From Myxocyprinus asiaticus (taxonomy: Eukaryota; Chordata; Actinopteri; Cypriniformes; Catostomidae), in NCBI RefSeq assembly GCF_019703515.2, contig NC_059385.1:34336001-34400000 (forward strand): 64,000 nucleotides of DNA, given 5' to 3'. Shown one piece after another: positions 1,196-62,054 of the stretch. The position numbers and the translations under genes were made by a program. Every line of letters starts with the position of its first letter. Position 1 is the first letter of the stretch. The notes beneath the pieces were generated by a model that did not search any database, had not been told where the DNA came from, and worked only from the letters and a program-made list of their open reading frames with translations.

Positions 1196-1261
1196 GGAAG
1201 GACCTTCTTTCTCAGTGACGAGGCACCCTCTGGCACCCGCGCCCAGACCTCTGGAATCTCC

Positions 1262-4988: not shown

Positions 4989-5116
4989 GTAAGTAATTTT
5001 AACTTCCTGCTACTGTAAAGTGTTCCAAGAAACAGAATGTAGTTTGACCAATGCCAATGAAGTATTTGCAATGCATTTTTTTCGGTATCTATTTTCTTTT
5101 GGCTTTTTCTCAACAG

Positions 5117-5183
5117 GTTGGTCTTCATGAAAATGACAACTATGACAAGATCCTGTCTGCTTTAACAGACATCAGCACAGAGA
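5117..5183 (+). CDS. ca12: Carbonic anhydrase (CA12-like) exon, VGLHENDNYDKI segment
   Basis: The 67-nt exon follows CAACAG and precedes GTATGA. It encodes VGLHENDNYDKILSALTDIS and TE plus one extra base (phase 1). The position, length and Y-D-K-I pattern match the small exon that follows the GLAVLG exon in the CA12/CA14 group. The extra base completes an AAG codon with the next exon, which supports both splice sites. It belongs to the catalytic domain but has no metal ligand. Confidence 0.8.
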
Positions 5184-5332
5184 GTATGATCTTAGAACTA
5201 GTATTAACTGTCAACTAAGTTGCTGTAGTGCTAGCAGCCAAAACTTAAAGCATATCCCCTTCTTCCTGATGAATTCGTTTAGAGGTGAATTCGTTTAGAC
5301 TAGTTTAAACTGATCTCATGGTCTCTTTTCAG

Positions 5333-5490
5333 AGTCAAACACTGAGATTCCTGGTTTTGACATCCGACATCTTCTACCAAACAGCTTGGAGAGGTTTTAT
5401 AGGTATAACGGGTCCCTGACAACACCTCCGTGTTTCCAGACAGTCAGTTGGACACTGTTCAATGATACGATCACAGTGTCAAGAAGACAG
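5333..5490 (+). CDS. ca12: Carbonic anhydrase (CA12-like) exon with the GSLTTPPC motif
   Basis: The 158-nt exon begins after TTTTCAG and ends at the donor GTCAGG. It encodes SNTEIPGFDIRHLLPNSLER, then FYRYNGSLTTPPCFQTVSWT. The block Y-x-G-S-L-T-T-P-P-C is the family signature: the two Thr are the gatekeeper and active-site residues (199 and 200 in CA2 numbering), and the Cys is the disulfide partner typical of secreted and membrane-bound isozymes. The upstream LLP and VSWT-like strand match CA12/CA14/CA9 better than cytosolic forms. Phase 0 at the 3' end. Confidence 0.9.
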
Positions 5491-5586
5491 GTCAGGCTAG
5501 TCTCACAACCTTTTCTTGAACATCATAAACACACTGCAGAGCGTCATGTATCCAAATTAATGTGTTCCTGTCCTTACTTTCACCAG

Positions 5587-5713
5587 CTTGCAGCCTTGGA
5601 GGACACATTGAAAACAGAACACAACAAGCTCTTATCCAAAAATTTCAGAGTGCCACAACTTCTGCATGGAAGAAAAGTACTGAAATCTTTCCACACAGTA
5701 ACCACCACAGGAA
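5587..5713 (+). CDS. ca12: Carbonic anhydrase (CA12-like) exon, end of catalytic domain
   Basis: The 127-nt exon starts after CACCAG and ends before the donor GTATGT at 5714. It encodes LAALEDTLKTEHNKLLSKNF, then RVPQLLHGRKVLKSFHTVTT and TG. N-F-R-x-x-Q is the conserved C-terminal motif of alpha carbonic anhydrases, followed by the last strand and a Thr-rich stalk. It ends in phase 1, and the next supported exon (44389) supplies two bases, so the join is in frame across a 38.7-kb intron. A small intervening exon, as known for alternatively spliced human CA12, was not found but cannot be excluded. Confidence 0.85.
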
Positions 5714-6490
5714 GTATGTATAATACATATTAGTTCTTTTAAAACTGATTGTGTTGTGATTCAAGGTGGGCCAGAGAAATATTTGGACATACTGATCCAA
5801 ATATGATCCTGGTATGTCTGAATGTCATTGCATTACCTATAAAATATTAAAGCAACTGTCATCTGCAAACAAATAATTCTAGGGCTTGCCTCTGAACTAT
5901 CCTCATTTCACAAGTTTACTCAGGTGTCCAAGCAGAGTAACCACAGGTGTAGTTTTGTAGTTCACAATAACTATGAACACGTTTCATAATGTCTGACAAC
6001 CACAAAGTGTCCAAATACTTTTTATGTTCATTATGAATGAGCAGTTAGAGCAGTGGTTCTCAGCCTTTTTTGAGTAATGTTTTTTTAAACACCTTCATTT
6101 ACATTATATCACCATTTCAATATTTTAATTGCAATAAAATTACATTAATCACAAAAAAGACATTAACTTTCATTTAATTTCAAATTTTAACAAATAAATA
6201 TATTTCTGTAACAGAAAAGTATTATAACACTTAATTTCCAACCATTTGTCTTACATTTGTTGGTTAATTTGTTAAAAGGATCAAATTACACTGACCTTTA
6301 CATTTCTATTGTTACTGATCAGTATTTTAAAGTCAATAAACATTAACCTGACTTTTTTCGCTATTTTGGAAATAATATTACCATGTAAAAAAAATATAGG
6401 CCTACCTACTGTATTTTCTGGTACAAGATGCATTTATTTATTTATTTATTTTTCATCATCCTAATTTCCTAAAGGTCCTGTGACATACTT
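5714..6490 (+). other. Start of giant intron with a possible hAT end
   Basis: AT-rich intron sequence. CAGTGGTTCTCAGCC at about 6054 matches the terminal motif of hAT elements (compare the complete one at 48277), but no matching right end or 8-bp duplication was found. A short TTTA repeat lies at about 6432-6452. No coding signal was seen. Confidence 0.45.
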
Positions 6491-6644
6491 TTTTTTAATT
6501 AACAGTTTTTATTGATTCATACAATTGACAAAGAAAAGCAAAACATATATTCACAGAATCAACATTTAACCCCCACTAATACCCCTCCCAATCCCAATCC
6601 CCAACCTCACCCTGGCCCTCAACAAACATCCCTGTGGTCACACG

Positions 6645-6649
<5 letters not shown>

Positions 6650-6688
<39 letters not shown>
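6650..6688. repeat. (CA)n microsatellite
   Basis: About 19 CA units in the 3' UTR of Tx1-a. The equivalent place in Tx1-b carries TG/TA repeats (22870-23072), so this is an element-borne microsatellite. Confidence 0.95.
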
Positions 6689-6690
<2 letters not shown>

Positions 6691-7005
6691 TATATAGTAC
6701 TGTGCAAAAGTTTTAGGCACTTGTGAAAAATGTTGCATAGTGAGGATGTCTTCAAAAATAATGACATAAATAGTTTCCATTTATCAATTAACATCATACA
6801 AAGTCCAGTAAACATAAAAAAAAGCTAAATCAATATTTGGTGTGGCCACCTTTGCTTTTAAAACAGCACCAATTCTTATAGGTACACCTGGATACAGTTT
6901 TTCTTGGTTGTTGGCAGATAGGATGTACCAAGCGTCTTGGAGAATTCACCACAGTTCTTCAGAATCAGAATCAGAATCAGCTTTATTGCCAAGTATAAAG
7001 CCAAG

Positions 7006-7038
<33 letters not shown>

Positions 7039-7541
7039 ATTTCCCAGAGGAATGAAATGGCAGAAGAGGTTGGATGTGTTGGATAAATATAAAAAAGACT
7101 AAGCTGTGTATTTCACATAGTTATTGTTCAGTGGGACAATTTAACTGTTCATGAGATGGATAGCCTGAGGGAAAAAACTGTTCCTGTGCCTGACGGTTCT
7201 GGTGCTCAGAGCTCTGAAAGGTAATGGGCAAGGTGAGTGGGGTCCAGAGTGATTTTTCCAGCTTTTTTCCTCACTCTGGAAGTGGATAGTTCTTGAAGGG
7301 GGGGGGGGGGCAATGGGCAACCAATAATCCTCTCAGCAGTCCGAACTGTCCTTTATAGTCTTCTGATGTCTGATTTCGTAGCTGAACTAAACCAGACAGT
7401 TATTGAAGTGCAGAGGACAGACTCAATGACTACTGAGTAGAACTGTATCAGCAGCACCTGTGGCAGGTTGAACTTCCTCAACTGGCGAAGGAAGTACAAC
7501 CTCTGCTGGGCCTTTTTCACAATGGAGTCAATGTGTGTCTC

Positions 7542-8479
7542 TCACTTCAGGTCCTGTGAGATGGTAGTGCCCAGGAACCTGAATGACTCCACTGCTGCCA
7601 CAGTGCTGTTTAGAATGATGAGGGGGGTTAGTGTTGGGGTGTTCCTCCTAAAGTCCACAATCATCTCCACCGTTTTGAGCGTGTTCAGCTCAAAGTTGTT
7701 TTGACTGCACCAGACAGCCAGCTGTTCAACCTTCCTTCTGTGTGCAGACTCATCATCACCTCGGATGAGGCCGATGACAGTGGTGTAATCTGCAAACTTC
7801 AGGAGCTTGACAGAGGGGTCCTTGGTGATGCAGTCATTGGTGTAGAGGGAGAAGAGTAGTGGGGAGAGCACACATCCCTGGGGTCACCAGTGCTGATTGT
7901 ACAGGTGCTGGAAGTGAGTTTCCCCTCTCTCACAAGCTGCTGCCTGTCCGTCAGAAAGCTGGTAATCCACTGACAGATAGACATGGGAACAGAGAGTTGG
8001 TGTAATTTATTCTGGAGTATAGCTGGGATGATGGTGTTGAAAGCTGAACTAAAGTCCACAAAAAGGATCCTTGCATATGTCCCTGGTCTGTCCAGATGTT
8101 GCAGGATATGATGCAATCCCATGTTGACTGCATCATCCACAGACCTGTTTGCTCGATAAGCAAATTGAAGGGGATCTAGAAAGGGTCCAGTGATGTTCCT
8201 CAGGTGGGCCAACACCAGTCTCTCAAATGATTTAATGACCACAGATGTCAGGGCGACAGGTCTGTAGTCATTAAGTCCTGTAATTTTTGGTTTCTTTGGG
8301 ACAGGAATAATGATTGAGCGTTTGAAGCAGCATGGGACTTCACACTGCTCCAGTGATCTGTTGAAGATCTGTGTGAAAATGGGGGCCAGCTGGTTAGCAC
8401 AGGATCGAAGACATGCTGGTGAGACGCCATCTGGGCCTGAAGCTTTGCTCGTCTTTTGTTTCCGAAAGACCCAGCTCAC
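7542..8479 (-). pseudogene. Rex1-like LINE copy 1 reverse transcriptase
   Basis: Two overlapping minus frames carry the RT. 7799-8479 has TSKASGPDGVSPACLRSCAN, LNDYRPVALTSVV, and LFVDFSSAFNTI (motif A). 7542-7871 holds LSPLLFSLYTND (motif B), then KFADYTTVIGLI, where the usual F/Y-A-D-D box reads FADY, so the second catalytic Asp is lost. A one-base shift near 7880 joins the two frames. The copy is inactive. Confidence 0.85.

Positions 8480-10212: not shown

Positions 10213-10299
<87 letters not shown>
10213..10299. repeat. (TA)n microsatellite
   Basis: About 40 TA units (10218-10297) edged by TGTG and ACAC. It is part of the Tx1-a 3' UTR and is split from the CA repeat at 6650 by the Tc1-like insertion. 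Confidence 0.95.
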
Positions 10300-10305
<6 letters not shown>

Positions 10306-10409
10306 TTTAAAACAATAATTCTCTCTCCACTGCCCCTCCCCAAGAGCCCTCCAAGAAGGCCAAATAGCTTCCCCATTTCCCATCAAATGAATCTAAGTTC
10401 CCCAGCCTT

Positions 10410-11450
10410 CTACACGACACCTCCCCAAATGCCACCACCCCCCCCATCTCCGTGCATCACTCCCGAAATGAGGGCGCTCCAGCCGACCTCCATCCCCCTA
10501 GAACAATTCGTCCGCCGATCATAACAGGACCCAACCCTTCCTGCATTCATCACCCACATCAATGACCGCCCCATTGCCCAAAATACAGAACCTGGGGCAA
10601 AACGAAATCTGGGTGCCCAACACGCCACACACAAAACCCCGAACCCTCAACCAAAAACCCAAAAATTGCACAAGACACAACCCTGCATCTCCAGATGTAG
10701 ACCCGATGCCCTCCAGAATCCTAGCACACACTCCCTCCCCCAACACCAAGCCCAAATCCCTCTCCCATAATCTCCTGTTAGAAGTTAAAGCTCCATCCCC
10801 CAGACTCAGAACCAGCAAGGAGCAACACACTAATGCCCCATGACCACCTCCAAAAGCAGTAATCACCACTCCCAGAGCATCTGCCACCCCAGGGGGGTGT
10901 ATGCCACTCCCAAAAATAGCACAGAGCACGTGGCGCAGCTGCAAACACCCAAAGAACTGAGATCTGGGAATCTCAAAATGTTGAACCACACCTTCAAAGG
11001 ATCTCAACACTCCACTCCCATAGAGGCCACCAAGCACATCAACCTCTCCCACAGTCCACTCTGATCAGCAGAAAGAGGACCCATCAACACACAATTCTGG
11101 GTTCAGCCATATGCTCGAGGCAACATCCAAATGTTTAAAACATCCAAATGTCCGAATTAAACACACCCCCGTCCACACCGAGTGCAAATGCGACCTCTCC
11201 GATTAGCTTGATAGGCTTTTCAATGGCGAAATAGGGGCAAGAATCCCCCGCTCAACACAACACCAGGCAGGGGCTCTCCCAGGCAGAAGTGACTAGTGAG
11301 CCAAATGTCCAAGACCGAACAAACAAAACACAACAACAAAACAAAATCCCAGGCAGGCATAGCCCACCCCTGCCAATCGGCCTATGCAACTCACTGAAAT
11401 ACAATCTGGGACATCCACCACTGCAAATGAAGGACCTCACCATGCCATCA
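10410..11450 (-). pseudogene. Tx1-a ORF2, C-terminal part
   Basis: The minus frame 10519-11052 aligns with Tx1-b 21995-22600: GVLRSFEGVVQHFEIPRSQF against GVLRSFENLVQHFGIPRSQF. About 45 residues of the zinc-knuckle-like segment (FKILHRFYWTPSRLYRLG onward in Tx1-b) are deleted. Replacements are mainly Lys/Glu to Gly, Tyr to Cys and Thr to Ala, as expected from A-to-G change in the sense strand. Confidence 0.8.
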
Positions 11451-12960
11451 AATCACCTGAAACAAGAGAGGGGGACATCCACAAGGAGAGACCGCAGCAG
11501 GCAGTTGAGCCTCGGAACACAACCCATTCCAACAACATCAACCTTCCCAATCATAGACAAATGCAATGAAGCCCACCCGCCCACATCACTCAAAAACCTC
11601 CCCATCAAAGGGTCAAAATCAACCCAAACAAATCACACAAATTTGGTGGGAACTAAATACCCAAACACTCAATGCCCCATTTGGGCCATCGGAAGGTGCC
11701 TGGCCAAAAAGCCGTCACAGGCAGCACACTGCCAGAGCCAAAGCCCCGGACCCAGACCAATTAACTCTGTATCCCGAGAACCTAGAAAAGGAATCAATAA
11801 TTCTGTGGAGGCAAGGCACAGATCCAGCAGGGCCGGAGACGAATAATAAAACATCATCTGCGCAAAGCAAAAGACCATGTGCCACACCTCCTGCCATCAC
11901 CCCTAGAAAACCAACCGTCTTTCCCACTGTGGCTGCCAGTGGCTCCAGGGCAAGACAGAACAACAATGGGGAAAGAGTGCAACCCTGCTGGGTGCCCCCA
12001 TCCAGAGCAAAACAACCTGAAATTAATCCATTCATTTGCACCGCCGCCACCGGGCATCCACAAAGCAACCCTATCCATCCAATGAAAGTATTCATGATCC
12101 CACACATTTCCAAAATCCCAAGAAGACAATCTCATTCCACCATATCAGACGTTAAGTGAGATGGCAGCGACCGGAGTCCGATCACCTACCACGGACCACA
12201 TGATATTGATGAAACGCCTAATGTTATCAGAAGAGCCACGGCCCTGAATAAACCCTATCTGATCAACACGTATAAGAGATGTCACAACTCCAACCAATTG
12301 GCTAGCCAAAATTGTTGACAATATTTTAATGGGAAACTGGACGGCAACTCCCACACCTGCCCAGATCCCCGTCCCCCCCAAGAATTAGACCAATCTGTGC
12401 TTGTCATGGTTGGCGGAAGTTTTCCATTCTTTAATGATTCCGTATAAACTTCTAGCAAAGGTGGAGCCAGACCTGTAGCATAAGATCTAAAAAATTCAGT
12501 GGCAAAGCTGTCCAGCCCTGTAGCCCTGCTCACAGGCAAGGCCCCAATCATCCCGCCAAGCTCCTCCAAGGCCATCTCAAAATCATGAGAATTCCTCCGC
12601 TCAGTCATCAGTCCAGGAAGTTCCAATGGTTCCACAAAGTTTCAAATATCATCATCAGTAGGTGAAGATGTGGAACTACAGAAATCAAGATGGAACTCCC
12701 TAAAAGCATCACTAACATCAATGGCTGAGGTAAATATTCCACCACCAGCAGACTGCACTGAGGGAATGGTAGAAAAAGACCCTCTCTGCCCCACATATCC
12801 AGCCAGAAGCTTCCCCGCCTTGTCCCCTGACCCAAAGCATGACTCTCTTGCAGGTCTTCCAACTTCTAGCAAAGGTGGAGCCAGATCTGTAGCATAAGAT
12901 CTAAAAAATAGCCAAATAGCCAGGCAATAGCCAAAACTCCACCCTCCGTGACAAAACAGC
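11451..12960 (-). pseudogene. Tx1-a ORF2 reverse transcriptase
   Basis: Minus frames 11715-12113 and 12282-12635 carry RT. EFFRSYATGLAPPLLEVYTE lies at the fingers and GGTQQGCTLSPLLFCLALEP is motif B. LLLCADDVLLF is the catalytic box, with Cys in place of the family Tyr (about 11853-11864). Motif A (SLDGEKAFDMVEW in Tx1-b) is disrupted near 12136-12160. Frames are broken by small indels, and a stretch near 12425-12500 is duplicated at 12865-12910. Confidence 0.82.
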
Positions 12961-14000
12961 ACTATATCTGTATTTCAATCGGGTCAATTCTACGAGGCCA
13001 CCAGACGACACCCGGTGCTCCAGCCCAACCTCGGCACCTCCAATACTCCCCTCCAACTCCATGAGTTCCCGTGCCCCGGATTTCCTGGTGAATGAGGCAC
13101 ACTGCACGATCCGGCCCCCAAGAATCGCCCCAAGTGCCTCCCAAGCCACGCCCACAGAGGACACTGAGACCAGCACAGACACTGACCTCAGCCCCCAGCA
13201 TCTGTTGGAATTCAGGATTTTGCAAAAGGGACACACAAAAGCACCAACTACATGATTTATTTTTCTCCATATGTGGCAACACCTCCAAACACACCAGGGT
13301 GCGATCCGAGACCAAAATGCCTCCAACCACAAGACAGACGAAATGAGGGACATAAAATAATCTATTCTAGAGTAAATCTTATGGACTTATGAATCTTATG
13401 AATCTTATGCTAGTCCCTAGCAGATGGACTAAAAGTCCTAGCAGAAAAGTCTCCAAACATCTGTAAGACCAAGATCTCCACACATCCTGCGAAGCGCCAC
13501 TGCCGCTCCAGGGGGCCTGCACACTCCTTCACTATGATCAAGGGCCGAGTCCATCAAAGATTAAAGTCTCCTCCCAATATTATATCATGAGGGGTACCAG
13601 CGGCCTGCAACATCCCCCCAAGTTCCACAAAAAAGCCCTGATCACCAACACCAGGTGCATAAATATTTGCCAAAATAAGACTTTGTCCCTGAATTTCAGC
13701 CAAAACAATAGTGACTCTTCCTAATTTCTCCTTACTCTGTTTGAGACATTTGAATTAAGTCATTTCCGTGGGGAAATGTGCACCTCCCGAAGAAGCACCA
13801 TACCATACCTCTCACGCCCAAGAAGAGAAACAACCCCCCTTCCCTCCATGGGGTGCCCCAACCCATCCACACTCCACGCGGAGGGAGACAATCCACCCAC
13901 ACCAACATTCGACATGCAAGAAAAAATAGATTGTGTGTCAAAAACAGGATCATAAATACCACATTCCAACACCAGTGCAACCATCAAACCCGGAACATTC
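12961..14000 (-). pseudogene. Tx1-a ORF2 AP-endonuclease
   Basis: The minus frame ending at 13760 begins MSNVGVGGLSPSAWSVDGLG, matching MSNVNMSGLSLSTWNVNGLG of Tx1-b (19061). The catalytic Asn motif WNVNG has become WSVDG and LQETH reads LREVH. Further upstream the frame 12962-13330 matches the end of the endonuclease domain (SDRTLVCLEVLPHMEKNKS against SDHALVSLEVLPHIEKKKS), with the SDH box lost. Confidence 0.8.
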
Positions 14001-14229
14001 CCCAGAACCAAATAAACAGAAAAAAGAAAAATTAACCCAGCGCACGACAGCGCCAACTGGCGTCTATCCCTCCAAACTCAAACAGTCTATGCACGTCCAT
14101 GAGAGCCCCCGCGACAACCCCGCCGTCAGACCGCTCAAGTCCGGTGCTTCTATACAAATTTTGAGAGACAGAATTACACAGCAAATGATAATCTACAAAA
14201 CTCCAGCCAATAGGCAGAACAAACACAAA

Positions 14230-14640
14230 GAGTGTGTAGCTTCATCAGTAAAACTGTCCTAAAGGTGTATTAGTCTACAAAATAAACTCCAGCCGCTAGA
14301 TGGAACCAGCACAAAAAGAATGCACAGACTCCTCAAACAGTCAAATGAATGTTCAGTGAGCCAGTGCATTCGGCTGCAACATGAGTGTAAGCAAATGACT
14401 TACACCAATGACTTTGCCAGAAATACTCCACAAAATAAACTCCAGCCAATAAACGGAGTAAGCACAAAGAGTGTGTAGACTCATCCACAAAACAGTCCCG
14501 AAAGTGTGCCGCTCCACAAAACAAACTCTAGCCGCCTGGCAGAACCAACACAAAAAAGTGCACAGAATCCTCAAACAGTCAAGCAAATGTTCAGTGAGCC
14601 AGTCCACTCGGCTGCAACGTGAGCACCACATGGTGACCCA
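14230..14640 (-). repeat. Tx1-a ORF1-ORF2 spacer repeats
   Basis: In minus orientation three or more imperfect copies of GGCTGGAGTTTGTTTTGTGG-type units lie here (for example ending at 14290, 14430 and 14525). They correspond to the repeats in Tx1-b (18160-18720) and Tx1-c (37131-37770). Confidence 0.65.
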
Positions 14641-15480
14641 CTAACTCCATTGACTTGTAAATGTTCCACGGCCATCCCCAGCATCCACTCCCAACTTGGC
14701 CGGGAAAAACAGTGCAAAAGCGACCCTCCGGCAATGCAAAAGCCTCCCGCACTCCCTGAATCGACCACGTTTCTCTCCTGTAGAGTTTGCAAAGTCCAGG
14801 AACAAGAAAATGCTGTGGTTCCTCTAAGAAAGCCTTCCCTCACTCCCCACCCCACGCAACACAAGATCCCAATTGGATGATCCCAGAAACTTGGCCAGAA
14901 TTGATCAGGGCCCGTCTCCCCCAGCAGATCGCCGAGCTGAAACCCTGTGAGCTCGCTCAACCCCCAGCGCATGGCCTGCCACATTGAGCAGACTCGGAAA
15001 GAGCCCATCCAAGAATTCCACCACATCCTGTCCCTCCACCCCCTCCGGGACTCCCACTATATGGACACCACTCCACCGGCCACGACCCTCCATGTCCTCC
15101 AACCTCTCCCAGACACATGCCAAATCCACCCCGGTCGCTAGTGGACCAGCAGACAATTCCCTCTCCGATGACTACAGACAATCGACCCGTCCCTCGACAT
15201 CCCCCACTCCTGCGACCACACCAGCAAACTTCGCCTCCATGGCAGTGATGATCGACGCATCACAGCAAGATCCTCCAAGTCAGCAACGACTCTCGTCAGC
15301 ATTGCCGGCATGCTCAACATCTCTCGCCGCATCTCCCGCACTTCCCCAACTAAATCGACTCCCGGGCTCGGGGCCTGCTTGTGAGCGCCAGCCCGAGCAT
15401 GCATGTGCCTTCCAATGTCTCCAGAGCCCGAGGACCCTGAACTCTTTGACACATTGTCCTCCTAGAACAGCCATGGATCA
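14641..15480 (-). pseudogene. Tx1-a ORF1 (L1 ORF1p-like)
   Basis: Minus frames 15138-15452 and 14905-15156 match Tx1-b ORF1: SSGSGDIGRHMHAR against SSGSGDIKRHLLDQ, VADLEDLAVMRRS against LADLEDLAVIRRS, and VHIVGVPEGVEGQDVVEFLD against VRIVGIPEHEEGRDMVKFLD. The family product is a coiled-coil RNA-binding chaperone of the LINE RNP. At the codon where Tx1-b and Tx1-c both read TGA (E-stop-AHR), Tx1-a reads CGA (about 14954), so it is ancestral there. Frameshifts split it. Confidence 0.78.
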
Positions 15481-15590
15481 GTGTGTATCAAATCTCACCG
15501 GTCCATGCCATAAAAGGTATCAAAACCAGCAAAGTGCGCAGAGCTCGCCGTTCACACATCCGATCCTCACATGGCATCATGTGACCTCAC

Positions 15591-16126
15591 CAAATCTACT
15601 TTTACATGATATGTATTGTAATTGATGTCAGCCGGTCAAACATGCTGCACACCACAACACATACATACAAACATTAAACATCAGTCATCGGGACAGTAGT
15701 GTTTTAAAGTAGCCTATTCAGAGTATTTTGCCTTTATAGAGTATTTTGCTGTCATTAAGTATTTATGCAAAATATTCTGTCCATCATAACAGTATTGTGT
15801 TAACAAACTCTAGCTGCTGACAAACGCAACTCCTCACATGCCCTCAAAATGACGTTTCATCGTAGTAAAAACATTCAGTCAGTGAACCGGATAATTAATG
15901 CTTAGCAAAGAGAGTTGCAAATATCAGAAATAATAACCACAGAAAGGCAGCCGCTAACATTAATGAAAGAATAGAATACAATAGGCATACTGTTTTATTC
16001 AGACTAAAAGCTGTTTATTTGTATACAGCATAAAGTTACATATAAACAGACGTGGCTTATTTGTCGCATTTTTTTTTCTTTAAACATGAACAGAATATGA
16101 AAAACTGTTACACATGTAACTGGTCC
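15591..16126. other. Unannotated AT-rich stretch
   Basis: No coding frame, terminal repeat or named element was recognised. It separates the 5' end of Tx1-a from the tRNA-like repeats at 16127. Confidence 0.4.
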
Positions 16127-16512
16127 TGCACAACCCGCTCCAAGCCGGATTCAAACCGGCATCTCCGGTAACTGGTCCTGCACAACACGCTCCGAGCCGG
16201 ATTCAAACCGGCATCTCCGGCATGGGAGGCAGGCGTGCTAATGAGGAGGCTAAAGGCTACAGCCTCTAGCATCAGTCTCTAGTGTGCCTTTTGAGGCCAG
16301 GGGAGTGAGGTTGACACATACTGCACAGTAATCACGTACCAGCTGGCTCCTGTTACACTCACCCCCCTAAACCTCACTCCCATCCAGGTCACGGCACCAC
16401 TGTAACCGGTCCTGCTCTACCCGCAATGAACGGGATTTGAATTGGTGTCTCTGGCGTGGGAGGCGGGCACATACCGCACAGCTATCACGTACCAGCTGGC
16501 TCCTGTTACACA
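16127..16512 (-). mobile_element. tRNA-derived SINE-like unit, internally duplicated
   Basis: In minus orientation the segment reads like a tRNA: GGTTTGAATCC fits a Pol III B box. The module around GGATTCAAACCGGCATCTCC occurs twice in tandem (16150 and 16200). A diverged third copy lies at 16403-16455. The sequence GTACCAGCTGGCTCCTGTTAC recurs at 16337 and 16487. It is not a functional tRNA gene, because no clover-leaf could be completed. Family unknown. Confidence 0.55.
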
Positions 16513-16855
16513 CACCATTACTTAAAGCAAATTCTCCCGATTAAATCAAGCCCCAGTGCACTGTGAAACGATATGTAGATGCTGAGGTAATCTTCACAGA
16601 GTGCGTCTTGACGTCTGATTCTGAGTGGCTGAAGTGAAGTCATGCAGGCGGCTGCTCCCGGGTCCTAATGCCTTCCATATACAACCTCTGTCAATGAGAC
16701 TTATACACAGATGTGACTTGTCTGTGTTTTATTCCTGTCTCTCTCAACAACGCGATTTTCAAATATATTTTAAATGATTCTACGGACCCCCTGTAATAAT
16801 GCCACGGATAACTAGGTGTCTGCGGACCCCCGGTTAAGAAATGCTGAATTAGAGA

Positions 16856-16964: not shown

Positions 16965-17132
16965 CACAGAGTAGAACAGAATAGAATAGAATCTTTAGTT
17001 ATCCCTGAAGGAAAACTGGTTTTGCAGTGTAACCGTTGGCAATTCACAATACACTCACACAGCACGAGACAAACATTGTGACAACAATAAATTTAAGACA
17101 AATACTACATTAATAAAGAATTTACACAGTCA
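16965..17132 (-). mobile_element. Rex1-like LINE copy 2, 3' end
   Basis: The minus element's tail is GAATAGAATAGAATC (16978). The fragment continues to 17132, where Tx1-b is inserted, and resumes after 23254. The 18-bp sequence AAAGAATTTACACAGTCA (17115-17132 and 23237-23254) is the duplicated target. Confidence 0.75.
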
Positions 17133-17228
17133 GGGCAAAAATGGATGCCATGCAAGGAGCAGACGTTTGAGCGACGAGCTCTGCGCACTTTGCTGAATTT
17201 CTGATTATTCTCATGTTATAAACCATGC

Positions 17229-18079
17229 AAAACATGGCAAAGAAGTCAAAATCCTCGGGCTCTGGAGATATTAAAAGACACTTACTTGATCAGGATGAAA
17301 GCCCCGACAGGCCTACAGACCGGGGACTCGATTTGGATGGCGCGGAGAGAGAGGAGATCCAGCGTCAGTTGTCCAACATGTTGATGATGTTGACGAAGAT
17401 TCTTGCTGACTTGGAGGATCTCGCTGTAATACGTCGATCGATCACGGCGATGGAAATAAAATTCTCTGAGTTAGGTACAAGAGTGTCTGATGTTGAAAAA
17501 TGAATCGATTTTCTGGAATCTTCGGAGAGGGAATTATCCGCTAATCCGCCCGCGACCAAAGTTGATTTGGAACGTCTCCTTGAAAAGCTTGAAGATCTTG
17601 AAAATAGAAACCGCAGGAATAACGTTCGAATTGTTGGAATTCCTGAGCATGAGGAGGGCAGAGATATGGTGAAATTCCTGGACGAGCTTTTCCCGAGTCT
17701 GCTCGACATGACAGGCCACAAGCTGGAAATCGAGTGAGCTCACAGAGTGCCAGCTCACAGATCTGCTGAGGGAGATAGGCCCAGATCGATTCTGGCCAGA
17801 TTTCTGAGATCATCCGATAAAGATCTTGTGTTGCGCCAGGTGAGGAGCAAAGGGAAGCTTTCTTGGAAGAACCATAATGTTTTCTTTTTCCCGGACTTTG
17901 CGAGTTCGACAAGAGAGAAACGCGATCGGTTCAAGGAATGTAAGAAACTCTTACATCAGAAAAAGATATCGTTTGCTCTGATGTTTCCTGCCAAACTGAG
18001 AATAGAAACGAAGGTCGGTCGCAAATTATTCACATGTCCAAATCTGGCAATGTCTTTTATAGAATCGATGACTGAGTAA
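17229..18079 (+). pseudogene. Tx1-b ORF1 (L1 ORF1p-like RNA-binding protein)
   Basis: One reading frame runs from the ATG at 17229 to 18079 with two TGA stops, at 17501 and 17735. At the second, Tx1-a keeps CGA, so it is a CpG transition. The order is a basic Ser-rich start (KKSKSSGSGDIKRH), a heptad-rich coiled coil (EIQRQLSNMLMMLTKILADL), an RRM-like core (NRRNNVRIVGIPEHEEGRDM) and a C-terminal domain (PRSILARFLRSSDKDLVLRQ), as in L1 ORF1p. The intact protein would coat LINE RNA. Confidence 0.85.
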
Positions 18080-18119
18080 ACCATTGGATGTTTCTCATGT
18101 GAGTGGGCCTGACTCGGTG

Positions 18120-18930
18120 TATCTAACTCTTGAGGAAGCTGGATGAAATTTTTTTTTTTTTGCGTTGGCTCCGCCGTGCGGCTGGAGCTTGTTTTGTGAA
18201 TAACACTTTTCCTTAAAGAAACTTTTGCATTGATGGAAGATTACATTTGCATTGAAGTTCCCGGCCAGTTGAGAGTGGACACTACGGATGACCGCAAAAT
18301 ATTTACATGCTCACACAAAGGATGTCTTTTATAAAGCTGACGGATTATGTAAGTCATGGTATATATTTTTATGCAGCCTCCGAGTGAATTGACTCGATCA
18401 TCCGGGGAACCGGGATGCCGGTTTTGTTTCTTTTTGTATTGGTTCCGCCTAGTGGCTGGAGCATGTTCATGTTCACTCCTTTGGAACAGCTGTGGATTAA
18501 TCTGTTCGTTCTTCGTGCTTATTCCTCCAGCTGGCTGTAGTTTGTTTTGAGTTTTTTTTATTTATTTTTTTTTTACGGGACATTTGAATGATTACGTCAT
18601 CTGCTGAACTCATAACAGCCGGCTCACTGAACATTCGTTTGTCTGTCTGAGGAATCTGAACGGTTTTATATCAGCTGGAATTTGTTTTGTGGAAGATCAC
18701 ATCCTTGAGACAGTTCTGTGAATGAATCTATACATTTTTTGTGTTCATTCTTCCTATTAACTGGGTTTATTACACAAAGTATTTTCTGTTATGTAATTTT
18801 GCCTCACAAATTTGTGAGGCAAAATTGAGCAATCCGATGGCAAAGTTGTCGTGGGGACTCGTGGGCGTTCATGGACCTTTTGAGTTTAGAGGAATTGTCG
18901 CCGGTTGGCGCTGTCGTGCGCGGGGTTAAT
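18120..18930 (+). repeat. Tx1-b ORF1-ORF2 spacer with about four imperfect repeats
   Basis: The unit, best seen as TTGGTTCCGCCTAGTGGCTG followed by GAGTTTGTTTTGTGGAAT, occurs at about 18158, 18437, 18505 and 18670. Tx1-c has five. The function is unknown; the position between the two ORFs suggests an RNA element. Confidence 0.6.
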
Positions 18931-19060
18931 GCGCACGTTTTTCTTTTTTCTGCTTGTTTTGTTCTGGGTGATGTTCGGGGGTTGATTGTTTCACTAATGG
19001 GGAATATGGTCTTCATAATTTTGTTTTTCACACACAATTTTTTATTTTTATTATATCAAT

Positions 19061-20281
19061 ATGTCAAATGTTAATATGAGTGGATTGTCTCTCTCCACAT
19101 GGAATGTAAATGGGTTGGGGCACCCCATAAAAAGAAGGAAGGTTATTACTTTTCTTAAACGTAAGAAATATGATATAGTGTTTCTTCAAGAAACACATCT
19201 CTCCCTGCAGGAAGCTGAAAAATTTGGGAAGATATGGGGTGGACATGTTTTCTTTAGTGTTGGCTCAAGTAAGAGCAAGGGAGTCATTATATTGATTAAT
19301 AAACATTTACAATTCAAATTTCTCAAACAGATTAAAGATAAATTAGGAAGAGTAATTATTGTTTTAGCTGAAATTCAAGGGCAAAGTCTGATTTTGGCTA
19401 ATATTTACGCACCTAACGTTGATGATCAGGGCTTTTTTATAGATCTTGAAGGGATGTTGCAAACCGCTGGCACCCCTCATGATATAATATTGGGAGGAGA
19501 CTTTAATCTTTTGATGGATTCAGTCCTTGATCATAGTGAAGCTAAAGTGTGTAAACCTCCTAGAGCAACATTGATGCTTCACAGGATGTGTAAAAATCTT
19601 GGTCTTTCAGATATTTGGAGACTTTTGAACCCATCCGGTAGGGACTATACATTTTTTTCATCAGTCCATAAGATTTATTCTAGTATATACATATTTTTTA
19701 TATCCAAATCCCTTATTTCATCTGTTGTTGATTGCTCAATTGGAAACATTTTAGTCTCAGATCACGCCCTGGTGAGTTTAGAGGTGTTGCCACATATAGA
19801 GAAAAAGAAATCATATAGTTGGCGCCTTAATGTGTCCCTTTTACAAAATCCTGATTTCCAACAAATGTTAAAGACTGAAGTCAATGTTTATATGGAGACC
19901 AACTGGTCCTCAGTATCCTCTGTGGGCGTGGCTTGGGAGGCACTTAAGGCGGTTCTTAGGGGCCGGATCATACAGTATGCCTCATTCATCAAAAAATCCA
20001 AAGCACGAGAACTTGTGGAGTTGGAAGGAAATATTAAAAGTGCCAAGGCAGAGCTGAAGCGCCGAATGTCATCTGACGGCCTCAGAGAATTGACCCGATT
20101 GAAATATAGATATAATACTATTTTGTCGCAGAAAGTGGAGTTTTGGTTATTCAGGGCAAGACAGTCATACTTTGAGTTGGGTGACAAAGCAGGGAAGCTT
20201 TTGGCTAGATATATAAAGCAGAGAGAGTCTTTTTCTACCATTCCCTCAGTGAAATCTGCTGGTGGTGAAATATTTACCTAA
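19061..20281 (+). pseudogene. Tx1-b ORF2, AP-endonuclease half
   Basis: The frame starts at the ATG MSNVNMSGLSLSTWNVNGLG and encodes an L1-type endonuclease with all key residues: Asn in WNVNG, Glu in FLQETHL, Asp/Asn in LGGDFNLLMDS, and SDH in LVSDHALVSLEV. A linker with conserved RARQSYFELGDKAGKLLA follows. A TAA at 20279 stops it; Tx1-a reads a Ser codon there, and the same frame carries on from 20282 into RT, so this is a point nonsense change in a once single ORF2. Confidence 0.9.
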
Positions 20282-22123
20282 GCCATTGATATTAATAATG
20301 CCTTTAAAGAATTCTATATTGATCTTTATAGTTCCACGTCTTCATCTACTGATGAAGATATTACAAACTTTGTGGAACCATTAGATCTTCCTAAACTGAC
20401 AACTGAGCAAAAAAACTCTCTTGATTCTGAGATAACCTTGGAGGAGCTTAACGAAGTAATTAAGTCCCTACCTACTGGCAAGGCTCCGGGGTCAGATGGT
20501 TTTGCCGCAGAATTTTTTAGATCCTATGCTACAGAATTGGCCCCACTTTTGTTAGAAGTTTATACGGAATCATTAAAGAATGGAAAGCTTCCTCCAACCA
20601 TGATACAAGCCCGGATCAGTCTGATTCTTAAAAAGGACAATGATCCAAGCGAGTGTAAAAGTTACTGTCCAATCTCCCTGATCCAACTAGATGTAAAAAT
20701 ATTGTCAAAAATTTTGGCTAACCGATTAAGTAAGGTTATGACATCTCTTATACATATAGATCAGGTGGGATTTATTCGGGGCCGTAGCTCTTCTGATAAC
20801 ATCAGGCGTCTCATCAATATCATGTGGTCAGTGGTGAATGATCAATCCCCGGTCTCTGCCATCTCACTTGACGGCGAAAAGGCGTTTGATATGGTAGAAT
20901 GGGATTATCTTTTTAAGATTTTGGAAATGTATGGGTTCGGGAGTACATTTATTGGTTGGATTAAGTTACTTTATAAACACCCTGTAGCAGCGGTACAAAC
21001 AAATGGATTAATATCAGATTATTTTACTCTGGATAGGGGCACTCGACAGGGTTGCCCTCTTTCCCCATTATTGTTCTGTCTTGCCCTGGAACCATTAGCA
21101 GCTGCGATAAGAAAGGAGGATGATTTTCCAGGGGTGACAGCAGGAGGTGAGGCGCATAAGCTTCTGCTTTATGCAGATGACATTTTATTATTTGTCTCTG
21201 AACCTACTAGATCTATGCCTTGCCTCCACAGAATTATTAATTCCTTTTCCCAGTTCTCAGGATACAAAGTCAATTGGTCTAAATCCGAAGCTTTGGCGCT
21301 GACAGCATACTGCCCAGAAACGGCTTTCCAGCCGGGCGCTTTCCAGTGGCCCAAACAGGGCATTAAGTATTTGGGGATTTTATTCCCAGCAAATTTGTCT
21401 GATTTAGTTAGAGTTAATTTTGACCCTTTAATAAAAAGGTTTTCGAGCGATGTCAGCAGGTGGGCTTCATTACATTTATCGATGATTGGGAAGGTTAATG
21501 TTATTAAAATGAATTGTATTCCAAAATTCAACTACCTGCTTCAGTCTCTCCGTGTAGATGTCCCCCTCTCTTATTTCAAGCAATTTGATAGCATAGCGAA
21601 GTCCTTTATTTGGAATGGTAAGCGCCCCAGGTTAAATTTCAATAAGTTACATAGGCCAATTGACAGAGGAGGGCTAGGCCTACCCAACATTTTGTTTTAT
21701 TATTATGCGTTCGGTCTTAGACATTTGGCTCATTGGTCGCTTCCACCTGAGAGGGCCCCTCCCTGGTTTTGTATTGAAAAGGAAGTTCTTGCCCCTATCT
21801 CACCACTGCATAGCCTTTCGATTAAACTAGCCGGAGAGGTTAAGTCGCATCCCGCTATTTTGCATTTGCACTCGATATGGACAAAAGTGTCCAGAGTTTT
21901 TAATTCTGATATTTATTTAAATGTTGCCTCGAGCATATGGCAGAACCCTAAACTATGTATTAATAAGTCCCCTTTTTGTTGGTCAGATTGGATTGTGAGG
22001 GGGGTTTTGAGATCTTTCGAAAATTTGGTTCAACATTTTGGCATTCCCAGATCTCAGTTTTATAAGTATTTACAGCTTCGCCACCTACTCTGCACTATTT
22101 TTGGGAGTAGCACGCACCCCTAA
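20282..22123 (+). pseudogene. Tx1-b ORF2, reverse transcriptase half
   Basis: In the same frame as the endonuclease. The motifs are: fingers LPTGKAPGSDGFAAEFF, ISLDGEKAFDMVEWDYLF (motif A), RGTRQGCPLSPLLFCLALEP (motif B), LLLYADDILLF (catalytic YADD, 21170-21181) and KYLGILFPANL. The thumb and connection continue with GGLGLPNILFYYYAFGLRHL. A shortened C run at about 22120 (CACCCCTAAAG against six Cs in Tx1-c) shifts the frame. The enzyme is otherwise complete. Confidence 0.9.
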
Positions 22124-22149
22124 AGCAGCAGGTGCTTTGGGAGAGGTGA

Positions 22150-22843
22150 TTGCTGCTTTTGAAAAAAGGCCATGAGGCATCAGTGTATTACTCCCTACTA
22201 ATTCAGAGTCTGGGGGATGAAGCCTTGACTTCTCTCAAGAGAGTATGGGAAAAAGATTTGAATTTGGTACTGGAGGATGGAGTGTGGACTAAGATTCTTA
22301 AAAATGTCAAGTCTGTATCTAGAGATGCAAGGGTTTGCCTTATGCAATTTAAGATTTTACATAGATTTTATTGGACCCCCTCTAGATTATATAGGCTTGG
22401 TCTTAAAGACACACCCACTTGCTGGCGATGCCAGTCAGAAGTTGGAGACACTACCCATGTCTTTTGGGGGTGTGTTAAGATCCAGGAGTTTTGGTTGAGG
22501 GTTCAGAGGTATTTGTGCGACGTTTTGAACACTCAGGTTTTGCTTTGTCCCAGACTCTGTATTTTGGGTGATGGAGCAGTCATGCATTTAGGGGACAGTC
22601 ACATAAAAAATTGGGTTCTGACCCATCAGTCTCATGATCGGCAGGGAAGTAATTTTAAGGGGCTGGAAGTCAAGTGGAGCACCCTTTTTTTCGGAGTGGT
22701 GTGTGGAAATGGGGAGGGTAGCTGCATTTGAAGAGGCGGTAAGTAGAAGGCTGGGGTTGAGGGACTTATTTGCTAAAAAATGGGGCAAATATTTAGTTTT
22801 TTGGGGGGAATCTCAGGGAGGGGATGTGGAGAGTGTAGTTTAA
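22150..22843 (+). pseudogene. Tx1-b ORF2, C-terminal domain
   Basis: After the frameshift the frame 22150-22731 encodes the LINE C-terminal domain, with a CWRC...HVFWGC pattern (TCWRCQSEVGDTTHVFWGC) resembling the Cys/His knuckle of L1 ORF2p. A second frameshift near 22630 moves the end to another frame (to 22843). Tx1-c encodes the same segment (39050-39440). Confidence 0.82.
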
Positions 22844-22867
22844 TCATGTATGTTTATTATTTTATTT

Positions 22868-22997
22868 ATTTGTGTATGTGTGTGTATGTATGTATATATA
22901 TATATATATATAATATATTTTATTTTATGTAAGTGTATGTATGTGTATCTGTGTATGTATGTATATGTATGTGTGTGTGTATATGTGTGTATATATG

Positions 22998-23072
<75 letters not shown>
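22868..23072. repeat. (TG/TA)n microsatellites in Tx1-b 3' UTR
   Basis: Runs of TGTATG and TA up to about 34 units (23004-23072). Present at the same place in Tx1-a, so carried by the element. Confidence 0.92.
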
Positions 23073-23076
<4 letters not shown>

Positions 23077-23254
23077 TTTTTTGGATTGTGTGTGTTTTAT
23101 GTGGGACCACAGGGGTGTTCGTTAGGGGTCAGGGTGGGATTGTATTAGTAGGGTTTAAATGTAAAATGTTGATTCATTATATATGAGTTTTTTTTCATTG
23201 TCATATGCACATGAATCAATAAAAATGTTAATTACAAAAGAATTTACACAGTCA

Positions 23255-25631: not shown

Positions 25632-25730
25632 GGAGTTCCCTATCTGTCACTCACTCGACATTATAGTGTCGATGTAGTGACACTAGGGGTCACTCTTGGG
25701 AGCCCGAGACACCTCTGGTCTTTGAAAAAA

Positions 25731-36110: not shown

Positions 36111-36249
36111 AGGGGAGTCGCGCGGCGCCATGCAAGGGTCGGATGTGTGAACGGCGAGCTCTGCGCACTTTGCTAGTTTTTAATAATTTTGTGTCATAAA
36201 CCAGTGAGATTCGATTCACCCTGTTCCATAACTGTTCTATGAAGTCAAT

Positions 36250-37050
36250 ATGTCAAAGAATTCAAAATCCTCGGGCTCTGGAGACATTAAAAGGGTCTCG
36301 GTTTGGATGGTGCTGCGGGAGAGATTCAGCGACAACTGTCGAGTATGTCGGCAATGCTGGCGAAAGGTTGTAGCAGACTTGGAGGATCTTGCTGTAATAC
36401 GTTGATTGATCATGGCCACGGAGACAAAATTTTCTGAGTTGGTTACAAGAATGGGGGACATCGAGAAACGGATCAATTATCTGGAGTCATCGGAGATGGA
36501 ATTAGCTGCTAACCCGCTAGTGACCCAGGCAGATTTGCAGCACGTCTGGGAAAAGTTGGACTTGGAGAATTGTAATTGGCGAAACAACTTCCGAATTGAT
36601 GGAAATCCTGAGAATGAAGAAGGCTGAGATATGATGAAATTCATAGATGAGCTCTTTCTGAGTCTGCTTGACATAACAGGCCATAAGCTGGAAATAGAGT
36701 GAGCTCACAGGGTCCCGGCTCAGAGATCCGTGGAGGGAAACAGGCCCTGATCAATTCTGGCCAAATTTCTGAGATCATCCGATAAAGATCTCGTGTTACG
36801 CGAGGTGAGGAGCAAAGGAAAGCTTTCTTGGAAGAACCACAACATTTTCTTTTTCCCAGACTTTGCAAATTCGAAAAGAGAGAAACGTGATTGATTCAAA
36901 AATGCAAGAAACTCTTATATCAACGGAAGGTCACTTTTGCACTGATGTTCCTGGCCAAATTGAGAATAGATACTAACAATAGATGGCCACAAAATATTTA
37001 CATGCCCACAGCGAGCATTGTCCTTCATAAAGTCAATGGACTGAGTAGGT
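36250..37050 (+). pseudogene. Tx1-c ORF1 relic
   Basis: Pieces match Tx1-b ORF1: MSKNSKSSGSGDIKR (36250), ITRMGDIEKRINYLESSEME-like sequence (36450), NWRNNFRIDGNPENEEG (36575) and a C-terminal stretch (36740-36960). Several stops and shifts break it, including TGA at the E-stop-AHR site shared with Tx1-b. Confidence 0.7.
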
Positions 37051-37099
37051 CATGGTGTGATTCTCACGTTGCAGCAAGTGAGCCTGACTTACTGAACAT

Positions 37100-37790
37100 T
37101 CACTTGACCATCCAAGGAAGCTGTTTCTTTGTTTCTTTTTGTGTTGGTTCCGCCTAGTGGCTGGAGTTTGTTTTGTGGAATAACACTCCAAGAAACATTT
37201 GCATCGATGGAGGGTCTGAAGTTCCCAGCCAGATTGAGAATAGATGCTAAGGATAGCTGCAAAGTATTTACTTGTCCCCAACAAGCAATGTCCTTCATAA
37301 AGTCAATGGAATGAGTAAGTCATTGTGTGGTATTCGATTTGCAGCCAAGTGGACCGCCTGAGGAAACTGGGTGCCTGTTTTGTTTCTTTTTGTGCTGGTT
37401 CTGCCTAGCGGCTGGAGTTTGTTTTGTGGAATAACACTGCTTGGGACTGTTTTGGATGAATTTGCATGTTCCTTGTGCTTATGCCTCCTATGGATGGAGT
37501 ATGTTTTGTGGAATATTTTTTGTAGGACATTGGAATGATTAGGTCATCTGCTGCACTCATGAAACAGCCGGCTCAATGAACATTCGTTTGACTGTCCGAG
37601 GAAACTGAAAGTTTTTTCTTTTTGTGTGTGCATGTGTGTGTGTGTGTGTGTGTGTGCTGGTTCCACTAGAGGCTGGAGTTTGTTTTGGGGAGGAACACAC
37701 CTTCGGGACAGTATGTGGATGAATATACACATTCTTTGTGTTTATTCTGCCTATTGGCTGGAGTTTGTTTTATAGATTTTATTCTGTTAT
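37100..37790 (+). repeat. Tx1-c ORF1-ORF2 spacer repeats and (TG)n
   Basis: Five imperfect units containing GGCTGGAGTTTGTTTTGTGG or close variants start at about 37131, 37380, 37466, 37655 and 37735. A (TG)n run lies at about 37632-37654. Confidence 0.65.
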
Positions 37791-38067
37791 GTAATTCTGT
37801 CTCACAAAATTTGTATAGAGGCATCGGACTTGAGCAATCCAATGGCAAAGTTGTCGCGGGGGATCTCGTGGGCATACATGGACTGTTTGGTTTGGAGGGA
37901 TGGACACCAGTTGGCGCTGTCATGCGTGAGGTTGATGTGTACGTTTATCTTTTTTCTGTTTGTTTGGTTTGGGGGGAAGTTCGGGGTTTACCTGTTGCAC
38001 TAATGTTGGAATGTGATCTTTATCATTTTATTTTTGACACACAATCTATTTTTTCTAATATGTCAAA

Positions 38068-39445
38068 ATGTCAAATGTGAATATGAGTGGATTGTCTCTT
38101 TCCACGTGGAATGTGAATAGGTTGGGGCACCCCATAAAAAGAAGGAAGGTTATTTCTTTTCTTAAACGAAATAAATATGATATAGTGTTTCTTCAAGAAA
38201 CGCATCTTTCCCTACAGGAAGCTGAAAAATTTGGGAGATTACATTTCAACAAGTTACATGGCCCCCATTGGCTGATTGACAAAGGTGGGCTAGGCCTACC
38301 CAAGATTTTGTTTTATTATTGTGCATTTGGTTTCAGACATTTGGCTCATTGGTCACTTCCTCCTGAGAGAGCCCCTCCTTGGTATTGAACAGGAAGTCCT
38401 TGCCCCTATTTTGCCATTGCAAAGCCTTTCTATCAAACTAACCGGAGAAGTTAAGTCACACCCTGTTATCTTGCATTTGCACGTGGTTTGGACAAAAGTG
38501 TCCAGAGTGTTTAATTCAGACATTTATTTAAATGTTGCCTCAAGCATATGGCTGAACCCTAAATTATGAATTAATAAGTAATTTCTGTTGGTCTGGGTGG
38601 ATTGGGAGGGGGGTTACTGTACTGGGTGACTTATATGAGAGTGGAGTGCTGAGATCTTTTGAAAATGGGTCAGCATTTTAAGATTCCTATATCTCAGTTC
38701 TTTAGGTATTTACAGCTGCACCACCTGTTCTGTACTATTTTTGGGAGTAGTATACACCCCCCTAAAGCGGCAGATACTCTGGAAGTGGTGATTGCTGCTT
38801 TTGGAAAAGGTCATGAGGCATCTGTGTATTACTCCCTGTTAATTCAGAGTATGGGGGACAGAGCTTCATCTTCTCAAGAGATTATGGGAGAAAGATTTAA
38901 ATTTGGTATTGGAGGAGGGAGTGTGGGCTAGGATTCTAAAAAGCATCAAGTCTACATCTAGAGATGCAAGGGTCCATCTGATGCCATTTAAGATTTTGCA
39001 TCGATTCTACTGGACCCCCTCTAGATTGTATAGGTTGGGTATTAAAGTCACACCCACCTACTGGTGGTGCCAATCAGAAGACGGGGACACAACACATGTT
39101 TTTTGGGGATGTGTTAAAATCCAAGAATTTTGGTTGGGGGTTCAGAGCTTTATATGTGAGGTATTGGACACTCAATTTTCATTTTGCCCCAGACTCTGTA
39201 TGCTGGGTTATGAGATGACTGTTAATATAGGGGACAGATATTTAAAAAGTTGGGTCCTAGCCGGAGTCATTATTGGCAGAAAAGTCATCTTAAGGGGATG
39301 GAAGTCGGCTGGGGCACCCTCGTTTAGGGAGTGGTGCGGGAAGATGGGCGAGGTGGCGGCATTTGAGGAGATGTTTTTTAGAAGTCTGGGGAAATGGGAT
39401 TTGTTTGTCAGGAAGTGGGGGGGTTATTTTTTTAATTTTTTTTAG
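38068..39445 (+). pseudogene. Tx1-c ORF2, deleted
   Basis: It begins MSNVNMSGLSLSTWNVNRLG (one change from Tx1-b) with FLQETHLSLQEAEKFG, then joins the late region (GPHWLIDKGGLGLPKILFYY). The remainder (EVLAPILPLQSLSIKLTGEV; HRFYWTPSRLYRLGIKVTPT; FWGCVKIQEFWLGVQ) follows the Tx1-b C-terminus in shifted frames. It keeps six Cs at 38757, where Tx1-b lost some. Confidence 0.82.
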
Positions 39446-39654
39446 GGTTCTCGGGGAGGGGCTGTGGAGAGGGATTTGTAGTTTAGTTGGGTTTGTGTAT
39501 TATTGATGTTGTTTGAATGTATATCTTGTTTTTTTTTATGTTATGTTTGGGGGGGGGGTGTTCGGGGGGAGGGTTGTAATGTGAATAATTGATTCCGTTT
39601 TTTTATGTTCTATGTTTTATGATTGGAATCAATAAAATTGTTAATAAAACAATT

Positions 39655-61336: not shown

Positions 61337-61365
61337 CCCTTGTGATTGTGGGTGATAAACACACC

Positions 61366-62049: not shown

Positions 62050-62054
62050 ATTTG

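Follow-up and report, generated by a model that had tools for sequence, protein, structure and literature searches.

The question raised by this locus is what turned so many adenines into guanines along one strand of a retroelement copy. The element, Tx1-a, is a long interspersed nuclear element (LINE) lying in a 64,000-nucleotide stretch of the Myxocyprinus asiaticus genome (NCBI RefSeq assembly GCF_019703515.2, contig NC_059385.1, positions 34,336,001 to 34,400,000; hereafter the window, in the coordinates of which positions are given), together with two relatives, Tx1-b and Tx1-c. An original prediction, made from the letters alone, had proposed that Tx1-a carries a strand-asymmetric A-to-G hypermutation of the kind left by ADAR (adenosine deaminase acting on RNA); the name Tx1 was given to the family there, and we use it as a label only. 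From the strand, direction, neighbours, blocks, limits, indifference to coding and recurrence of the changes, we infer that the sense RNA of Tx1-a was very probably hyper-edited from adenosine to inosine (A-to-I) by ADAR before its reverse transcription into the genome, and that such editing occurred more than once.

Tx1-b contains the PF03372 (exonuclease/endonuclease) and PF00078 (reverse transcriptase) domains, with a zf-RVT match below the cut-off, and Tx1-a, which aligns to Tx1-b along its length, thereby corresponds to the endonuclease and reverse transcriptase domains of a LINE. Both Tx1-b and Tx1-c are complete insertion events, because exact target-site duplications stand on both sides of each of them (17115-17132 and 23237-23254 for Tx1-b; 36098-36110 and 39655-39667 for Tx1-c). 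Two pairwise alignments of Tx1-a, Tx1-b and Tx1-c were made, the second of which was used for the later counts. From Tx1-b to Tx1-a, over 4667 well-aligned columns, 514 of 1278 As became G, as compared with T-to-C at 113/1473, G-to-A at 97/1087 and C-to-T at 122/829. The original prediction had relied on hand counts of about 18 A-to-G, 0 G-to-A, 5 C-to-T and 3 T-to-C in 11721-11885, and of about 21 A-to-G and 5 G-to-A in 12421-12650; our recounts agree with them (20, 1, 5 and 3 in the former interval; 22 A-to-G, 5 G-to-A, 8 C-to-T and 6 T-to-C in the latter). The hypermutation does cover the predicted extent, 10410..15480 (531 A-to-G, 113 G-to-A, 133 C-to-T and 121 T-to-C), and its span is slightly wider, from about 15577 to 10310.

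Genomic copies of the family gave a sharper spectrum. The genome searched was the 2.34 Gb assembly, in which each query brought up 4,927 to 8,418 first-look candidates for this LINE family and had 40 places scored; for a Tx1-b segment, 39 other places among these 40 were 96-98% alike. Measured against the most frequent base at each column of 56 other copies (Tx1-b plus 55 loci; L001 and L031, where Tx1-a and Tx1-b themselves lie, were left out of the counts) over about 4 kb (minus-strand 14400-10311), the sense strand of Tx1-a has A-to-G at 347 of 939 sites (37%) and T-to-C at 35 of 1142 (3%), with G-to-A (6.2%) and C-to-T (7.7%) within the range of the other copies, whose own A-to-G level has a median of 0.9% and a maximum of 3.1%. 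Tx1-a therefore bears an ADAR-type footprint, that is a one-strand excess of A-to-G over the background of the other changes, and neither the 56-copy counts nor the direction read from proteins (see below) gave an APOBEC-type G-to-A excess on its sense strand. Among the 26 pairs of window repeats with at least 250 columns, judged by reading the pair table, a one-transition mark (one transition at least twice as frequent as each of the other three) was present in 8/8 pairs that include Tx1-a and in 0/18 others, and the A-to-G bias is therefore no property of the region.

With Tx1-c as the third sequence, the Tx1-a branch has A-to-G at 219/649, T-to-C at 41/855, G-to-A at 40/741 and C-to-T at 37/440; the corresponding numbers are 31/649, 50/855, 74/741 and 39/440 on the Tx1-b branch, and 25/649, 29/855, 52/741 and 35/440 on the Tx1-c branch. 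The transversions, in 2685 columns, amount to 70, 105 and 68 for Tx1-a, Tx1-b and Tx1-c, respectively. Tx1-a is thus in excess for A-to-G alone and has no more transversions than its relatives, whereas A-to-G and T-to-C are roughly balanced on the Tx1-b and Tx1-c branches. Three sequences cannot root the changes, and we therefore turned to homologous proteins for their direction (120 listed of the 1668 found, those with names being mostly from teleost fish). At 85 codons altered by A-to-G only, the Tx1-b residue is the commoner one at 76, the Tx1-a residue at 8, with 1 tie; positions conserved at 80% or more favour Tx1-b over Tx1-a by 16 to 0, and the 16 closest protein relatives favour it by 77 to 6. 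The 62 codons with mixed changes also side with Tx1-b (49 versus 11), as expected of a broken copy. Among the residues lost in Tx1-a are tyrosines present in 119/120 homologous proteins at Tx1-b position 333 and in 118/118 at position 201, and the catalytic YADD and endonuclease WNVNG motifs of Tx1-b read CADD and WSVDG in Tx1-a, as had been noticed. The changes are indifferent to coding: A-to-G is evenly spread over the three codon positions (117/288, 126/287 and 117/240), and 255 nonsynonymous changes were observed versus 264.8 predicted from context. The proteins, the neutrality of codon positions and the 56 copies all place the A-to-G changes on the Tx1-a branch, as originally proposed.

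The 5' neighbours of the changed As are those favoured by ADARs. By 5' neighbour, A-to-G in Tx1-a occurred at 152/271 sites after T (0.56), 206/376 after A (0.55), 77/239 after C (0.32) and 76/314 after G (0.24; p=7e-21); the editing odds relative to 5' G were 6.2 for T, 4.0 for A and 1.55 for C. The sites where Tx1-b equals Tx1-c gave 90/141 after A, 42/65 after T, 21/84 after C and 27/136 after G. Background A-to-G in the 56 other copies is indifferent to the 5' neighbour (T 139/12431, A 169/15308, C 138/10821, G 136/13047). On the 3' side, T is disfavoured and G and A are equal (A 187/371, G 140/280, C 71/159, T 112/391; p=3.5e-10); the base two positions upstream has an effect as well (p=9e-5), with T highest. 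The 5' U/A-not-G context of ADAR is therefore present at the edited sites: 5' G is given as a weak ADAR neighbour in PMC8586724 and is lacking from the zebrafish ADAR motif (PMC8096273). The zebrafish motif also has somewhat more G downstream. At family CA sites in Tx1-a, C-to-T was found at 16/52 beside an edited G and at 5/125 beside A, a CpG decay pattern expected if editing came first and a weak sign, TA itself being a favoured context; the same test was not significant in two further edited copies, L055 and L037 (p 0.15 and 0.13).

The changes respect the limits of the element. At the outer 5' border, the 200-base sense bin at 15400 has 63 G and 45 A and the next one outward (15600) has 35 G and 69 A; at the other border, the bin at 10400 has 89 G and 32 A, and that at 10200, which contains the TA microsatellite, has 39 G and 70 A. 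Composition is thus back to normal in the bins just beyond both ends, and its shift being limited to the element, a change in the RNA or complementary DNA (cDNA) of that element fits. Within Tx1-a, edited and unedited As form 527 runs versus 577.9 expected, and the longest unedited run, of 24 columns (12462-12394), was reached in a fraction of 0.0008 of 5000 context-preserving shuffles; the untouched A-rich patch reported near 12421-12452 is therefore real.

Tx1-a also has internal duplications. A 49-base stretch occurs twice (12447-12495 and 12861-12909; 98% alike, 414 bases apart), its extra copy being absent from Tx1-b and keeping A where the other copy has G; it could stem from template switching during reverse transcription. 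Between 14190 and 14630, a stretch of about 238 bases stands twice in tandem, with heavier A-to-G in the first copy (13 versus 2 differences). TA-rich long microsatellites occupy 10220-10309, where Tx1-a breaks off on its 3' side, and 22916-23130, in the 3' part of Tx1-b.

A-to-G hypermutation of this LINE family is not a single event. A search for other copies with clustered A-to-G changes brought five more, L035, L037, L055, L063 and L069, which all have the 5' preference of Tx1-a (U and A, then C, then G), and in all of which an unedited stretch adjoins the edited block. In the reverse transcriptase segment, A-to-G and T-to-C amount to 103/364 and 10/429 in L035 (9/84 As edited after G), 51/387 and 9/451 in L055 (0/90 after G), and 45/391 and 11/451 in L037 (1/91 after G). 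The ADAR-type block pattern recurs in L055 (52/286 within the stretch matching Tx1-b 20600-21800, 5/446 before it), in L037 (47/231 within the match to 20800-21800, 7/555 before it) and in L069 (53/186 A-to-G versus 4/223 T-to-C overall; 0/58 in the first 250 columns, then 53/124; 5' G depleted). In L035, A-to-G is sparse in 19000-20000 and editing sets in from there, apart from a single low bin, at 21000 (1/40). L063 is edited in open reading frame 1 (ORF1; A-to-G 83/211 versus T-to-C 1/176; 5' G depleted), its block ending near the match to 14450 and its bin at 13600 giving 0/85; a bin upstream of the Tx1-a start (A-to-G 20/58, T-to-C 10/58), taken as badly aligned, was left unused. L071 (A-to-G 8/177, T-to-C 2/223) was not scored as edited. 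The edited copies number 5 of the 77 other copies examined (5/42 of those fetched with Tx1-a pieces), which is no frequency, since edited queries favour edited copies; the shared block position of L055 and L037 may likewise come from the choice of query. An edited piece of Tx1-a used as a protein query found 2 proteins, both more like Tx1-b than Tx1-a, and the largest excess of A-to-G-type over G-to-A-type differences in the 120 listed homologous proteins was 7 versus 0, as compared with 31 versus 7 in Tx1-a; open frames are the source of these proteins, and edited copies may therefore be missing among them. On another copy, L044, the stretch matching 22435-22539 has 10 T-to-C, mostly private, in 30 successive T columns, together with other changes, and may be a small block of the opposite strand.

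By letters, the reverse transcriptase segment of Tx1-a is 77-81% alike to its nearest full matches, but its transversion distance to the 12 nearest copies is only 2.3-3.0%, and none of the 40 places scored is a close sister bearing its changes. A tree built with merged purines puts Tx1-a, L035, L037 and L055 at four separate places: Tx1-a with L038, L039, L043 and L051 (0.75), L035 with L032 (0.90), L037 with L040 and L059 (1.0), and L055 in a clade of 31 including L002-L005 (0.985). As regards the edited sites themselves, L035 and L037 share 17 versus 16.5 expected from two-base context, and L035 and L055 show a weak excess (23 versus 18.1).

We propose that sense LINE RNA would pair with antisense LINE RNA into a duplex (ADARs require double-stranded RNA), that a germ-line ADAR would deaminate stretches ranging from some hundred bases to the entire LINE RNA, that the LINE reverse transcriptase would read inosine as G, and that target-primed reverse transcription would insert the edited product. 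The catalytic motif being ruined in Tx1-a, the inserting enzyme would therefore have been translated before editing or supplied by another copy. The genome contains 57 matches to A_deamin, the ADAR-type deaminase domain, at 14 places; related deaminases share this domain. Strand, direction, 5' context and recurrence all support the ADAR-type editing originally suggested.

Several observations weigh against this proposal. All of the evidence is genome sequence. The copies fetched with Tx1-b or with a simulated edited query were edited in 0/35 cases (the simulated-editing query, derived from Tx1-b, brought up 40 places, with 0 edited of 6 read). Shared edited sites exceed the context expectation for Tx1-a and L035 (53 versus 39.6), Tx1-a and L063 (52 versus 38.1), L055 and L037 (18 versus 9.9), Tx1-a and L055 (30 versus 22.9), and Tx1-a and L037 (28 versus 21.9), which may be explained by a longer context or by query choice, or possibly by partial inheritance. 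The 3' preference, clear in Tx1-a, is faint or missing in the other copies, with p values of 0.13 (L035), 0.05 (L055), 0.62 (L037) and 0.025 (L063). A special local fold as the editing trigger was rejected, no unusual fold being found at the block sites: in 300-base windows of Tx1-b, the block common to L055 and L037 gave no consistent signal (z -1.8 to 1.4, starts 20800-21600), the lower values lying elsewhere (-4.1 at 18600, -2.6 at 20600 and -2.5 at 20200).

Other routes to the same letters have to be weighed. An ADAR-type enzyme may have acted on DNA, either on the second cDNA strand or on the integrated sense strand paired with antisense RNA, with a strand and context expected to be identical to those seen; according to a review (PMC12925331), which calls the case of retrovirus DNA unknown, deoxyadenosine is edited by ADARs when it lies in model RNA/DNA hybrids. 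However, composition changes at the borders of Tx1-a and not beyond, where the editing of an RNA-paired chromosome need not stop, and we regard deamination of DNA as unlikely. The original prediction had named RNA or an RNA/DNA hybrid, before integration, as the substrate: RNA fits, whereas the first cDNA strand of a hybrid does not, because its editing would give sense T-to-C, which is at background. A strand-biased polymerase, be it a misincorporating LINE reverse transcriptase or an error-prone enzyme preferring A after A/T, is another candidate, the 5' preference for A and T also agreeing with the WA motif of polymerase eta; yet blocks with 30-40% of the As changed, with the other changes at background, lie far above any error rate known to us, and the changes stop at the element borders, which makes such errors very improbable.

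Two further explanations deny that Tx1-a was the copy attacked. That the Tx1-b/c lineage lost G to A in an APOBEC-like manner, Tx1-a keeping the old bases, gains from the direction-blindness of three sequences and from the neighbours, the G-to-A sites of this reading being at 108/280 with a following G versus 25/163 with a following A. This explanation was sought in the proteins, the codon positions and the 56 copies and was not found there: the homologous proteins and the As of the genomic copies reject it, the 5' context fits ADAR, and editing of adjacent As would itself produce the excess of a following G, so that we give it practically no credence. That Tx1-a comes instead from an old, slowly drifting subfamily whose sense strand is rich in G and poor in A would agree with the variable composition of fish Tx1 elements (four GC-rich ones among AT-rich elements; PMC7140322). 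Such a subfamily, with T-to-C as frequent as A-to-G, was also sought and not found: T-to-C stands at 3% versus 37% in the 56-copy counts, the low transversion distances and the transversion count of Tx1-a (70 versus 105 in Tx1-b and 68 in Tx1-c) do not suit an old lineage, no like-changed sister is among the 40 places scored, and the other edited copies have unedited stretches. It is rejected on these grounds and deserves hardly any weight.

If ADAR editing of LINE RNA is accepted, the genome is likely to be a library of single LINE RNAs frozen after germ-line ADAR attack, each marking, with its block ends, where the RNA was double-stranded; an RNA coding for a dead enzyme would still have been inserted, so that editing would act after translation or such RNA would move in trans. 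The A-to-G blocks would then be the ADAR counterpart of the G-to-A marks left in genomes by APOBEC, and would tell which transposons had double-stranded RNA in germ cells, along what length and with what frequency. For dating, an edited LINE copy would seem far older than its real age; for LINE biology, insertion would be possible after the message has been ruined.

The features are listed in Table 1. Elsewhere in the window, short direct repeats of 52 and 64 bases, perhaps pieces of a short interspersed nuclear element (SINE), lie at 16116-16516, between Tx1-a and Tx1-b. GC-rich related repeats with open frames occur in both orientations at 1-3345, 25633-29615, 33906-35734 and 54152-59819; they are 78-92% alike and show no strand bias. 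The plus strand of 60001-64000 has a marked AT skew (-0.27 and -0.13). A viral contig search found no relative.

Table 1. Position of Tx1-a, its edited parts and its relatives in the window.
Feature	Position	Strand	Remarks
Tx1-a, A-to-G hypermutated LINE copy	10310..15577	(-)	5' end kept, 3' end lost at TA microsatellite
Tx1-a ORF1 part, edited	14640..15460	(-)	A-to-G 67/200 vs T-to-C 2/176; reference: six unedited-looking copies and L063
Tx1-a reverse transcriptase part, edited	11450..12850	(-)	A-to-G 136/348 vs T-to-C 8/410, against 56 copies
Tx1-a 3' third, edited	10520..11400	(-)	A-to-G 68/169 vs T-to-C 2/216; reference: six copies, one of them edited
Tx1-a catalytic YADD to CADD	11853..11864	(-)	YADD in Tx1-b
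Tx1-a endonuclease motif WNVNG to WSVDG	13862..13876	(-)	WNVNG in Tx1-b
Tx1-a run of 24 unedited A columns	12394..12462	(-)	context-preserving shuffles
Tx1-b, unedited relative	17133..23236	(+)	flanked by 18-base target-site duplication
Tx1-c, unedited relative, middle missing	~36111..39654	(+)	flanked by 13-base target-site duplication

Deaminase marks in genomes have so far been read mainly as APOBEC G-to-A footprints, and the titles and abstracts brought up by searches of open-licence literature, among them reviews of viral A-to-G hypermutation and of APOBEC marks in retrotransposons, gave no report of A-to-G blocks fixed in LINE copies, which does not establish novelty. The genomic retrotransposon marks of APOBEC (PMC2873906, where mismatch clusters were sought in sequencing traces) are likewise clustered, strand-specific deaminase footprints, but they differ in base, direction and neighbours, and in Tx1-a it is the RNA before reverse transcription that fits, not the first cDNA strand. 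In zebrafish, A-to-I editing of repeats, whose index peaks in ovary (about 2.4%) and testis (about 1.99%), involves the same base change, the same lack of G upstream and dense repeat editing (PMC8096273); there, however, RNA reads differ from an unchanged genome, whereas here the change sits in the genome. ADAR1 is reported to suppress LINE-1 retrotransposition, an inhibition said not to be due to editing (as cited in PMC12925331); an ADAR acts on a LINE ribonucleoprotein there and would do so here, with the difference that here edited RNA was apparently inserted. Further parallels are the A-to-G hypermutations of Rous-associated virus 1, avian leukosis virus, HTLV-2 and STLV-3 (PMC12925331, PMC8586724), which are also sense-strand A-to-G changes of reverse-transcribed elements attributed to ADAR, the avian retroviruses having almost half of their As changed. 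These retroviral cases arose in infection or culture, whereas here several LINE copies, changed over stretches of up to the whole element, are fixed in a genome.

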